Shown here: piece after piece, positions 11,848 to 15,010 of the stretch
Layout of the letters: each line of letters begins with the position of its first letter
Numbering within the stretch: the first letter of the stretch is position 1
Assembly (NCBI GenBank): GCA_016210205.1
Contig: JACQUO010000033.1
Span: forward strand, 1 to 49,423
DNA from: Chloroflexota bacterium
Lineage (GTDB): Bacteria > Chloroflexota > Dehalococcoidia > JACQUO01
Length of the DNA: 49,423 bases
Reading direction: 5' to 3'
Made by a program: the position numbers and the translations under genes
Notes under the pieces: generated by a model
Seen by the model: the letters and a program-made list of their open reading frames with translations, nothing else
Database searches by the model: none
Told to the model about the DNA's origin: nothing

Positions 11848-13056
11848 GTGCAGCAGCTAGCCCGCTGGCTGGGCCTAGGTGCTCGCCCGCCGCGGCGAGC
11901 CCTGGTCTCGCGGCGGGTGCAGGGCATTCCGCCCTCGGGCATCCGCAAGTTCTTCGACCTGCTCTCCACCATGGAGGGGGTCATCTCCCTGGGGGTGGGG
12001 GAGCCGGACTTCACCACCCCCTGGCACATCAGCGAGGCGGCCATCGCCGCCTTGGGTCAGGGCTACACCATGTACACCTCCAACTACGGCCTGCTGGAGC
12101 TGAGGCAGGAGGTGGCCCGCTACCTCAAGGAGCGTTACGGCCTGGCTTACGACCCCAAGACGGAAATCCTGATTACCACCGGCGTCAGCGAGGGTATCGA
12201 CCTGGCCATGCGGGCCATCTTGGACCCGGGGGACGAGGTGATGTGTCCCGAGCCGTCCTATGTCTCCTATATGCCCTGCGTGGCCCTGGCGGGGGGCGTC
12301 TTCGTGCCCATACCCACCCGGGAGGAGGACGATTTCCGGGTGCGGGCCAGTGCTCTGCAGGCTCGGGCCACCGCACGCACCAGGGCCATCATGATGGGCT
12401 ACCCCAACAACCCCACCGGCGCGGTCATGGGCCGGGGCGACCTCTTCGGCGTGGCCGAGGTGGCCGCCCGCCACAGCTTGCTGGTGGTCTCCGATGAGAT
12501 ATACGAGCGCCTGGTCTATGACGAGAAGCACACCTGCTTCGCCTCCCTGCCGGGGATGCAGGAACGCACCATCCTCCTGGGAGGGTTCTCCAAGTCCTAC
12601 GCTATGACGGGCTGGCGGGTGGGCTATGCCTGCGCCCGGGCCGAGATAATCGAGGCCATGATGAAGGTGCACCAGTACACCATGCTCTGCGCCCCCGTCA
12701 TGGCCCAGATGGCGGCCCTGGAGGCCCTGCGGACGGGTGATAAGGATGTGGAGGAGATGCGGGCCGACTACGACCGCCGCCGCCGGGTCATGGTGGCGGG
12801 CCTGCGAGAGATTGGCCTGCCGTGCTTCGAGCCCCGGGGGGCCTTCTACGCCTTCCCCTCCATCAAGGGGACGGGCCTCACCTCGGCGGAGTTCGCGGAG
12901 AAGCTGCTCTTCGAGGAGAAGGTGGCGGCGGTGCCCGGCTCCGCCTTCGGGGAGAGCGGGGAGGGCTACCTCCGCTGCTGCTACGCCACCTCGCTGGGGG
13001 AGATAGAGGAGGCCCTGGCGCGCATGGGCCGGTTCTTGCGGCGGCACAAACAGTAG
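11848..13056 (+). CDS. Class I/II PLP-dependent aminotransferase
   Basis: A fold-type I aminotransferase, 402 residues, of the aspartate/aromatic aminotransferase group often encoded next to Lrp regulators. Visible active-site elements are GYPNNPTGAV (N188, binds PLP), VVSDEIYE (D216, pairs with pyridine N), and GGFSKSYAMTGWRVGY with K249 forming the Schiff base. The substrate amino acid is not determined. The start is GTG 11848 with GAGG 7 bases upstream. A degraded copy of its last 16 codons is found 1 kb downstream (14063-14113). Confidence 0.94.
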   Translation: MQQLARWLGLGARPPRRALVSRRVQGIPPSGIRKFFDLLSTMEGVISLGVGEPDFTTPWHISEAAIAALGQGYTMYTSNYGLLELRQEVARYLKERYGLAYDPKTEILITTGVSEGIDLAMRAILDPGDEVMCPEPSYVSYMPCVALAGGVFVPIPTREEDDFRVRASALQARATARTRAIMMGYPNNPTGAVMGRGDLFGVAEVAARHSLLVVSDEIYERLVYDEKHTCFASLPGMQERTILLGGFSKSYAMTGWRVGYACARAEIIEAMMKVHQYTMLCAPVMAQMAALEALRTGDKDVEEMRADYDRRRRVMVAGLREIGLPCFEPRGAFYAFPSIKGTGLTSAEFAEKLLFEEKVAAVPGSAFGESGEGYLRCCYATSLGEIEEALARMGRFLRRHKQ

Positions 13057-13137
13057 TGATGGGCTGGCCTGGATAATGCCAGCACCGGTATTGTGGAGCG
13101 ACCTTAAGGGATTTCACAGAAGGAGGAGGAGGACAAC

Positions 13138-13566
13138 ATGACCACCAGACGGCGAAGTGAGCCCAGCCAGAAGCGCCCCAAAGAGAGCGTGGCCGAGAAG
13201 TATGTGAAGAACGTCATGGCCATGGTCAGAAAAGCTGCCCCACCCCCAAGGCTAATTGGCCCGAGACCATGCCAGTGTGGCAGCTTACACACACTCGCAG
13301 ACCCAGTCCCAGTCACCGTCTCTGTCAAACAATACGCAGGCTACAGAGAGGTTACCGTAGCGGCTCCAAGTGGCGCAGTGGTTTTAGTCCGAGATGTCGA
13401 TAGTTCTTCCAATAATGACACTGGAACTGTCGGAAGCAGTGGTAGCGTCACCCTCACTATTAGGAGGGGAGGGCCGACAGGAGGGCCGGGGCAGAACGCA
13501 CAAGTCCTCTATCATATCCAATGGACAGATGCAAATGGCACGCATGTCGTGCTCGGGGGCGCATGA
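13138..13566 (+). CDS. Unknown protein with basic N-terminus and beta-rich C-terminus
   Basis: I do not recognise this 142-residue protein. The first 40 residues are basic and proline-containing (MTTRRRSEPSQKRPKE). One CQCG motif occurs at about 45-48. From about 58 onward the sequence looks like a beta-sandwich-type domain (VPVTVSVKQYAGYREVTVAA) with a Ser/Gly-rich linker (VGSSGSVTLTIRRGGPTGG). No signal peptide or membrane helix is evident. A very strong site, AAGGAGGAGGACAAC, precedes ATG 13138, so expression is likely. It sits inside the strip bounded by the aminotransferase 3' end and its degraded duplicate. Confidence 0.65.
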   Translation: MTTRRRSEPSQKRPKESVAEKYVKNVMAMVRKAAPPPRLIGPRPCQCGSLHTLADPVPVTVSVKQYAGYREVTVAAPSGAVVLVRDVDSSSNNDTGTVGSSGSVTLTIRRGGPTGGPGQNAQVLYHIQWTDANGTHVVLGGA

Positions 13567-13748
13567 GCGCCCGGCTGATTTGAGCCCCTAAATCTATCAC
13601 GGCCAGGCAAAGGATGCCCCATCCCAAAGGCAACCTGGTCTCCCCACGGGGAGTTTCCTCAGGGTTGGAGTCGCCCGGCAGGATTGTGCGTAGGCGAGCA
13701 GTTGGGGGGTGATTTTCTTGAGTCTGCCCAGTTTCCTCCCAAAATATC

Positions 13749-13776
13749 TTGACAAGCCTAAGAAAAAGTGTAATAT
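13749..13776 (+). promoter_or_regulatory. Promoter of micropeptide cassette 1
   Basis: TTGACA (13749-13754), 16-base spacer, TAATAT (13771-13776). The context TCTTGACAAG...GTGTAAT...TCAAG.CAATGA is shared with the promoter of cassette 2, showing common ancestry. Confidence 0.75.
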
Positions 13777-13782
13777 GAATTT

Positions 13783-13904
13783 CAAGCAATGAGGCGATAT
13801 ACTCTGAACCTGAAACCAAAACCTGGGCAAAGCTACGACAGTAGTAGCTGCCAAATCAATATGGGATAAAGGCGGGGAAATGGGTTTCCCCGCCTTGCTT
13901 TTAG
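13783..13904 (+). ncRNA. Structured leader of micropeptide cassette 1
   Basis: Between the promoter and the ribosome-binding site is a leader of about 125 bases. It holds an imperfect stem (GGCAAAGCTAC / GTAGTAGCTGCC, about 13834-13860). A perfect 12-bp stem follows: AAGGCGGGGAAA / TTTCCCCGCCTT (13869-13880 and 13885-13896) with a TGGG loop, then TTGCTTTTAG. The last hairpin looks like a weak intrinsic terminator placed before the Shine-Dalgarno site, so attenuation or release of a short RNA is possible (inference). The hairpin is conserved in cassette 2 with a different loop. Confidence 0.45.
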
Positions 13905-13923
13905 AGAGGAGGTGATATCTACA

Positions 13924-13983
13924 ATGGCTAAACCCGGAAAGCCCGGCAGCAAACCCGCTGGCAAGCCCGGCCCCAAGAAGTAA
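13924..13983 (+). CDS. 19-residue Lys/Pro/Gly micropeptide (cassette 1)
   Basis: A tiny gene encoding MAKPGKPGSKPAGKPGPKK. Evidence that it is real: a perfect AGGAGGTGAT anti-16S site (13907-13916) 7 bases before ATG; a near-consensus promoter upstream; and a second copy at 14374 in which the coding and translation signals are preserved although the rest diverged. Differences between copies in the shared first ten codons are synonymous (AAA/AAG, CCC/CCT). The peptide is highly basic, with no membrane segment. No family is recognised; nucleic-acid or anionic-surface binding is only a guess. Confidence 0.65.
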   Translation: MAKPGKPGSKPAGKPGPKK

Positions 13984-14002
13984 GTAGCTCGGGTAAGTCC
14001 GT

Positions 14003-14050
14003 AGGGGGTGTAAGGAATTCCTTACACCCCCTGCGTTGCTCCCGAGCAAC
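14003..14050. terminator. Perfect 30-base palindrome plus second hairpin after cassette 1
   Basis: AGGGGGTGTAAGG, AATT, CCTTACACCCCCT form a 30-base perfect palindrome (14003-14032). GTTGCTC-CC-GAGCAAC (14035-14050) follows directly. The first is likely the transcription end of cassette 1, although no run of T follows, so another role cannot be excluded. Confidence 0.55.
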
Positions 14051-14062
14051 AAGGCCCGTACT

Positions 14063-14113
14063 GCCGAGATAGCGCAGGCCCTGGCGCGCAGGGAGCGTTT
14101 CCTGCGGCGGCAC
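14063..14113 (+). pseudogene. Degraded duplicate of the aminotransferase 3' end
   Basis: The stretch GAGATAGCGCAGGCCCTGGC and its continuation matches the end of the aminotransferase gene (13000-13047) at about 80% of positions over some 48 bases. In the same frame it reads AEIAQALARRERFLRRHAK against GEIEEALARMGRFLRRHKQ. It has no start or upstream part of the gene. It marks the left edge of a tandem duplication that also copied the micropeptide cassette. Confidence 0.65.
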
Positions 14114-14204
14114 GCCAAAGGTCGGAGGACAGCCTCATCATCGGAAGTGACTGACACCATTCTTGGCAGTCTCGGCAGGCTTCCCAATTTTACCCCCAAA
14201 GGTC

Positions 14205-14232
14205 TTGACAAGGAAGGAGGCCGGTGTATAAT
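14205..14232 (+). promoter_or_regulatory. Consensus promoter of micropeptide cassette 2
   Basis: TTGACA (14205-14210), 16-base spacer, TATAAT (14227-14232): both hexamers perfect. Confidence 0.85.
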
Positions 14233-14238
14233 TTTCTC

Positions 14239-14353
14239 AAGTCAATGAATAAGCGCTCGCTAGTCATGAAGCCTGAACCGAGTAGTAGTTGTAGTTGTCT
14301 ACAATCTAAAGGGACAATGGCGGGGAAATAGCGATTTCCCCGCCTTGCTTTTA
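14239..14353 (+). ncRNA. Structured leader of micropeptide cassette 2
   Basis: Holds TTGTAG-TTGT-CTACAA (about 14289-14304). An 11-bp stem GGCGGGGAAAT / ATTTCCCCGCC (14319-14329 and 14334-14344) with an AGCG loop follows, then TTGCTTTTAG. From TTTCCCCGCC to the fourth codon of the peptide the sequence is almost identical to cassette 1, while the leader further upstream is diverged. Confidence 0.45.
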
Positions 14354-14373
14354 GAGAGGAGGTGATATCTACA

Positions 14374-14427
14374 ATGGCTAAGCCTGGAAAGCCCGGCAGC
14401 AAGCCGCCCTCTGGACCAAAGCGGTAA
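14374..14427 (+). CDS. 17-residue Lys/Pro/Gly micropeptide (cassette 2)
   Basis: Encodes MAKPGKPGSKPPSGPKR. The first 11 residues equal those of the cassette 1 peptide and the tail differs in length and sequence. The same AGGAGGTGAT site lies 7 bases before the ATG. A perfect TTGACA/TATAAT promoter lies upstream and a strong terminator downstream, so this is a complete one-gene transcription unit. Confidence 0.65.
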   Translation: MAKPGKPGSKPPSGPKR

Positions 14428-14444
14428 TATAACTGGGTGCGGCC

Positions 14445-14494
14445 GTGGGGGTGGAAGGGGCAATCCTTCCACCCCTACATTTCGCTGCTTTTTG
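14445..14494 (+). terminator. Terminator of micropeptide cassette 2
   Basis: Stem GGGGTGGAAGG (14448-14458) / CCTTCCACCCC (14465-14475) with a six-base loop, extended by GTG/TAC pairing, followed by a T-rich ATTTCGCTGCTTTTT. Confidence 0.75.
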
Positions 14495-14560
14495 GGCCCT
14501 ATGGTTCAAAACTGAATAAAGAAGCAATTATGGCTCCAGCATCCTTAAGGGAGGCAAAAC

Positions 14561-14869
14561 ATGGCAAATACCGAAAACCGCAAAAGATTGGCTAAGGCTT
14601 GGTTGGCAGATGTCCCCACGGACAAGGTGTTCTGGTGCCAAGATGGCCGGGTGCTAAAGAACCTGGGCGAGTTGGCCGTGGCTCTGCGGCAGATGTCCGC
14701 GGATACCTACCTCTACCACGCCAATGCCCAGAAGAACGACTTCAGCAAGTGGATTAAGGATGTCCTCGGCGATGAGACTCTGGCCAAGGACCTGCAGAAG
14801 GTGAGCAACAACCACGCCGCCGCCCAAAAGGTGGAGGCCAGGGTGAGCTGGCTCAGGGCCCGGGCCTAG
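14561..14869 (+). CDS. DUF5752-like protein
   Basis: A 102-residue soluble protein. The core reads VFWCQDGRVLKNLGELAVAL, then TYLYHANAQKNDFSKWIKDV. This resembles the DUF5752 pattern of a DG.v.knL.eL segment, a Y-H pair and NDFs.WI.dvlgD, found in archaea and bacteria. I am moderately sure of the family; its function is unknown to me. AAGGGAGGCAAAAC precedes the ATG. It follows the cassette 2 terminator, so it either has its own weak promoter or depends on read-through. It is followed by a strong terminator. Confidence 0.6.
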   Translation: MANTENRKRLAKAWLADVPTDKVFWCQDGRVLKNLGELAVALRQMSADTYLYHANAQKNDFSKWIKDVLGDETLAKDLQKVSNNHAAAQKVEARVSWLRARA

Positions 14870-14901
14870 CTGCCAGCGCGGCGATAAGCCGCTTGAAACA
14901 T

Positions 14902-14933
14902 AAGCCCCCAGGATTCACCTGGGGGCTTTCCCT
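14902..14933. terminator. Bidirectional terminator between convergent genes
   Basis: AAGCCCCCAGG / CCTGGGGGCTT with an ATTCA loop (14902-14928), then TTCCCTT. It serves the DUF5752-like gene and possibly also the convergent aldolase gene. Confidence 0.85.
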
Positions 14934-15010
14934 TATATAACGCTGGAATGGCTCCCCATCCTTGGCTCTTAAAAGCCGGACGACGGCCAGGCCACATTCC
15001 CCACGAGCAA

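Follow-up and report, generated by a model that had tools for sequence, protein, structure and literature searches.

Do two very short tandem genes in a Dehalococcoidia genome, each behind a promoter of its own, encode genuine peptides, and what controls their synthesis? Genes of 10-28 codons fall below the usual limits of annotation. The two units considered here lie on the plus strand at positions 13740-14495 of the window, that is, of the whole 49,423-nucleotide stretch of DNA analyzed, which belongs to a genome of 1.42 Mb in 34 contigs (87.5% complete).

Structure of the Two Units

Both units show the same order of elements: promoter, leader, GC hairpin followed by TTGCTTTTA, extended Shine-Dalgarno (SD) site AGGAGGTGAT, micropeptide gene, and a strong hairpin. 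The promoters, leader hairpins, extended SD sites, and micropeptide genes listed in the initial annotation were all found as described when sequence and coordinates were checked. The promoter of unit 1, TTGACA-16-TAATAT (13749..13776; the plus strand applies to all features below unless noted), matches the consensus at 10/12 positions and that of unit 2, TTGACA-16-TATAAT (14205..14232), at 12/12; they are the sole matches with at most two mismatches in the 49-kb window, where 0.2 would be expected. The extended SD sites (13907..13916 and 14357..14366) precede the genes of the 19-residue micropeptide MAKPGKPGSKPAGKPGPKK (13924..13983) and the 17-residue micropeptide MAKPGKPGSKPPSGPKR (14374..14427). 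A 68-base block reaching from the 3' arm of the leader hairpin to codon 11 is identical in both units save three third-codon positions, the leader and the peptide tail being the parts that differ. The two units are paralogous copies.

A strong palindrome or terminator had been claimed after each gene. Both elements are indeed stable, with -32.6 kcal/mol for the palindrome of unit 1 (14000..14035, no strand assigned) and -35.5 kcal/mol for the terminator-like hairpin of unit 2 (14445..14478), but the former has only a weak T-run. The extended SD is not specific to the cassettes; AGAGAGGAGGTGAT also occurs at another gene of the source genome. Between an aminotransferase gene and the cassettes lies a 142-aa ORF with a Lys/Arg-rich N-terminus (13138-13566, plus strand), for which there was no Pfam match.

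Selection on the Encoded Micropeptides

Ten comparisons between close copies or close species yielded 31 synonymous and 3 nonsynonymous changes, against a synonymous share of 26% expected without selection. The corresponding P of about 2e-15 is approximate because some of the ten have a sequence in common (three copies from G105/G058, three from G044, and three Dehalococcoides-like genomes), one omitted codons lost to an indel, and that of unit 1 with unit 2 was restricted to the alignable codons 1-11; the direction of the excess is not in doubt. In the clearest pair, MFKSKPPAKPAPKK is identical between two genomes despite 7 synonymous changes. Over codons 1-11, units 1 and 2 differ at four synonymous sites only, in agreement with the early observation that codon differences at the start of the gene are silent. 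It follows from the synonymous excess that the micropeptides are translated and selected, and the purifying selection that the initial annotation had suspected is demonstrated at the sequence level.

The same counts bear on the idea that translation of the micropeptide ORF acts in cis only, through ribosome pausing at the Lys and Pro codons, the peptide itself having no role. Pro- and Lys-rich runs slow ribosomes, as this idea requires; yet the amino acids are kept while the codons change freely, and in most cassettes only a terminator follows the peptide 3', and we regard a purely cis-acting ORF as hardly credible.

A Micropeptide Family in Dehalococcoidia

Homologous cassettes had been predicted in relatives. 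They are present in 21 other genomes of the class Dehalococcoidia, but the exact MAKPGKPG does not recur. Together with the source genome this amounts to 22 genomes from 15 family-level groups, which is a minimum, the search patterns having been biased. The relatives were brought out by relaxed patterns, in which GGAGG or GGTGA precedes an ATG and a tiny ORF ending in P-K-K or K-K before the stop, and by inspection of neighboring loci; no close relative of the source genome is among the genomes of the collection, every one listed being related to it as a member of the same class. Among the class genomes and GTDB220 contigs searched, MAKP behind AGGAGGTGAT begins a Lys/Pro peptide in the source genome only: in 393 class genomes the MAKP-type pattern matched, apart from the source genome, one unrelated 66-aa protein (G170), and its 48 matches in GTDB220 contigs included no recognizable relative. 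The exact-spacer pattern GGAGGTGATATCTACAATGGC had no match in IMG/VR, and the search of plasmids for the cassette pattern gave chance matches only. Finally, a search for KPAPKK/KPGPKK tails in 400 genomes of the phylum revealed, among the loci inspected, no tiny SD-led Lys/Pro ORF outside Dehalococcoidia.

The comparison establishes a family of predicted Lys/Pro micropeptides in the class. Its members have 10-28 residues, about 87% of them Lys, Pro, Ala, or Gly, usually end in PKK or PKKK, and mostly lie behind GGAGGTGA or GGGGGTGA. They include MASKGKPSGPAKPAPKK, MFKSKPPAKPAPKK, MFMRKPEPPRGPAKPPKK, MKKPPAKPAPKK, MKKPGKPAPKK, MFAKKGGAKPKK, MRAKTGQQKPTGGPLKPGIFKPGTAPKK, MAKKPAGKPAPKKK, MRCKKASKPAPKKK, MPAKKAPAKKAAKKK, MAAKKKAAKKKKK, MKGKPAPKKK, MQKKPAPGKPAPKR, and MVDKKPMAPAAKPGAPAAKPVKK, among others, as well as MPVKKAAGKAAAKAKPATKKK, which was read off the sequence. 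Two or three copies in tandem are common, each with its own SD in several cassettes. The family appears to be undescribed, as had been supposed for the window peptides: Pfam and NCBIfam gave no match for the two members that reach the 20 residues needed for a scan, Rfam gave nothing at gathering score for positions 13000-15000 of the window, and the open-access literature on Dehalococcoidia small proteins and Lys/Pro micropeptides contained nothing relevant.

Common ancestry across the class is hard to prove because the peptides are low-complexity, and the argument for it rests on the SD, the architecture, and the neighbors. The more distant members might be low-complexity ORFs that arose by convergence and do not form one family; this would suit their shortness and simple composition and the lack of any other occurrence of the exact window sequence. 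Such convergence seems unlikely to us in view of the common PKK end, SD, tandem copies, and upstream ORF/hairpin layout, and of the same divergent regulator found in several families. What the comparison shows is a micropeptide family under selection throughout a bacterial class, including single-contig genomes of 1.4-1.5 Mb, probably of Dehalococcoides, a culturable genus.

Pooled over 30 peptides, Lys makes up 40% of the residues, Pro 21%, Ala 19%, and Gly 8%; nearly all family members have a net charge of +5 to +8. The micropeptides are strongly basic, lack a signal sequence or hydrophobic part, and are expected to be disordered. Their Lys/Ala/Pro composition, high positive charge, and expected disorder resemble those of histone H1-like bacterial proteins rich in the same residues, such as Hc1, AlgP, and HU tails. 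However, the latter are long or form tails of folded domains, whereas the cassette peptides are free, 10-28 residues long, and equipped with their own SD and terminator. Composition and copy number suggest binding to polyanions as the most likely action of the micropeptide, which is at present a guess. Export or processing, as a signaling peptide, an antimicrobial peptide, or a RiPP precursor, would also suit short, cationic, strongly selected, and multi-copy peptides; but neither a signal sequence nor a leader region is present, no gene for maturation or export was noticed around the cassettes of the window, and the neighbors vary among relatives, which leaves this alternative improbable.

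Other small ORFs were encountered in the course of these searches. Two proteobacterial MAG contigs (L033 and L036) encode mutually similar small basic peptides, MAKPCKKVVRRVRLGNKPGPKPVRVRPHRRSPPKKC and MAKPKTTCRPVRTGKKPGPKNVRVKPHVRSTPKPIKPKCNCS, behind AGGAGGTGAT, possibly another undescribed small-protein family. An identical 9-residue ORF, MAIHPCLKK, which is not a Lys/Pro peptide, follows GGTGA in two genera (G261:C9:50005-50043 and G218:C31:1053-1091).

Upstream ORFs and Hairpins in the Leaders

The leaders had been viewed as drifting. Their sequences do differ between the units, but this is not mere drift, as each carries an upstream ORF (uORF) tied to the hairpin. The uORFs MRRYTLNLKPKPGQSYDSSSCQINMG of unit 1 (13789-13869) and MNKRSLVMKPEPSSSCSCLQSKGTMAGK of unit 2 (14245-14331) both start 6 nt past the predicted transcription start sites (TSS; ~13783 and ~14239), from which the leaders extend for 87 and 80 nt, respectively, to the hairpin. 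The stop codon of the uORF is situated one base ahead of the hairpin stem in unit 1 and within the hairpin loop in unit 2. The hairpins themselves, GGCGGGGAAA-UGGG-UUUCCCCGCC in unit 1 (13871-13894; -18.9 kcal/mol, z -3.5) and GGCGGGGAAAU-AGCG-AUUUCCCCGCC in unit 2 (14319-14344; -20.4 kcal/mol, z -4.8), are followed by the tail TTGCTTTTA, and the resulting terminator-like elements (13871..13903 and 14319..14353) are likely attenuators. From the expression signals we infer that the micropeptide is produced at a high level; given the tie between uORF and hairpin, its expression looks conditional rather than simply high.

The same arrangement recurs in relatives. In 12/16 leaders, units 1 and 2 included, the terminator-like hairpin and its T-rich tail beat shuffles (p <= 0.02), and the stem sequences are wholly different between lineages. 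The four others (G008, G011b, G010b, and G097, the last likely Dehalococcoides) have no hairpin of this quality; therefore, the attenuator, though common, is not present in every leader. Promoter and hairpin were both assigned in 13 leaders, a set chosen for having them. A uORF that starts within 30 nt past the TSS and is open into the hairpin was found in 8 of the 13 (1.2 expected), and in 11 if starts up to 100 nt are allowed (2.0 expected), the TSS being predicted from promoter sequences of which a few were assigned by eye. None of 2000 dinucleotide shuffle sets reached either count. In G010a, the ORF entering the hairpin starts late, at 44 nt. The uORF peptides vary freely and are poorly conserved, with no synonymous excess like that of the micropeptides; this is consistent with translation itself, and not its product, being what matters.

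A simpler explanation would see in the hairpin no more than a terminator or an mRNA-stabilizing element and in the uORF a separate tiny gene or an idle frame, with the micropeptide made by constant leaky read-through. It would account for the leaders that have no hairpin, for the weak conservation of the uORF peptides, and for G105/G058, where the hairpin is located 76-113 nt ahead of the micropeptide start and far from the SD. However, the uORF-into-hairpin arrangement is far more frequent than in shuffles, and the stretch from the end of the hairpin to the start of the SD in units 1 and 2 amounts to only 12 bases, T-rich tail included, too few for another promoter. We give this explanation appreciable weight but consider it clearly the weaker one, and translation-dependent attenuation is the reading followed below.

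Upstream of the hairpin, the leaders of units 1 and 2 have no structure beyond shuffles (z -0.8 and -0.1), which speaks against both a riboswitch and a classical antiterminator. No antiterminator was found, and the predicted fold of the full leader retains the terminator. Neither was a sensor amino acid common to the uORFs found; sets of close relatives for comparing leaders comprised only two genomes per family. There are no consecutive Cys codons, with one isolated Cys in the uORF of unit 1 and two separated ones in that of unit 2, and Cys is absent from the uORFs of most relatives. The leader word CGTAG/CGTAGT, present in G024, G105, G058, G032, G010, G028, G037, G044, and G097 (9/16 leaders, 1.5 expected), was rejected as a candidate signal, being not significant once all words are considered.

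Known Attenuators and the Proposed Mechanism

Ribosome-mediated transcription attenuation is established for leaders of the trp/his type, including ilvB1 in Mycobacterium tuberculosis (PMC13236596). Like these systems, the cassettes carry a leader ORF and, after it, a hairpin resembling an intrinsic terminator ahead of the structural gene. In contrast to the known systems, no antiterminator or run of a regulatory codon was found in the cassettes, in several members the uORF extends into the terminator, and what is regulated is a micropeptide instead of a biosynthetic operon. A classical attenuator with antiterminator and sensor codons was accordingly rejected for the cassette leaders, neither component having been found there; the control principle would be a variant of leader-ORF attenuation. 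The leaderless polycysteine uORF attenuators of mycobacteria (Canestrari et al. 2020, as cited in PMC13236596) appear from that citation to be similar: in the cassettes, too, the uORF is predicted to begin at the 5' end of the transcript or close to it, and uORF translation would regulate. Unlike the cassettes, where Cys is sparse in units 1 and 2, they are described there as controlling cysteine genes via Cys codons.

We propose that each unit is probably a complete tiny operon, in which a translation-coupled attenuator controls an abundant, disordered, polycationic peptide. The strong sigma-70-type promoter would give an RNA with almost no 5' UTR, and ribosomes would initiate at the 5'-end uORF, which reaches or enters the terminator-like hairpin just 5' of the micropeptide SD. 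A ribosome in the uORF close behind RNA polymerase would hold the hairpin open, allowing read-through and synthesis of the micropeptide from its strong SD, whereas in the absence of a closely following ribosome the hairpin would end transcription after about 120 nt. The product would be a soluble, disordered polycation, probably acting in trans on polyanions such as RNA, DNA, or polyphosphate. The predicted uORF-into-hairpin arrangement is shown by the comparison with shuffles; the direction, the mechanism, and the translation dependence of attenuation we infer from this layout. The recurring uORF-into-terminator layout provides a simple model of translation-coupled antitermination that lends itself to testing.

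A wider extension of this scheme, which we put forward tentatively and consider doubtful, is a class-wide system in which the leaderless uORF senses ribosome availability by melting the terminator, so that micropeptide output would report transcription-translation coupling. Free "histone-tail-like" polycations would then either compact RNA or DNA or affect ribosomes as translation conditions change.

Neighboring Genes

The small protein gene 3' of unit 2 (14561-14869, plus strand) belongs to DUF5752, which also neighbors the cassettes of G008 and G028. DUF5752 occurs in 14/100 class genomes searched, and most DUF5752 genes of the class have no adjoining cassette; the shared neighborhood suggests a candidate link only. 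Its AlphaFold model is confident (pLDDT 95) and mostly helical. The fold was tried as a clue to function and set aside, the profile being only weakly linked to archaeal OrfY (4cso) and revealing no function, and the literature on DUF5752 contained nothing relevant.

Several relatives carry, on the other side of the cassette promoter and in divergent orientation, a gene for a winged-helix protein (about 92 residues; Pfam HTH_24/MarR-like). This linkage is well documented at the level of predicted genes, the divergent gene adjoining 11 cassettes in 9 genomes: G105, G058, G032, G010 (twice, with two paralogs), G046 (twice), G011, and G013/G048/G097, the last being three single-contig genomes of one genus and hence not fully independent. 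The protein family occurs in 97/245 class genomes, and among 26 further winged-helix loci read many had no recognized cassette; the gene has no match in the source genome. At one more locus (L239, G114), a winged-helix gene is divergent from a region that ends in a DUF5752-like frame, with no recognized Lys/Pro peptide between the two. The winged-helix regulator is a frequent partner of the cassette, not a required one, and where present it provides a genetic handle on the cassettes.
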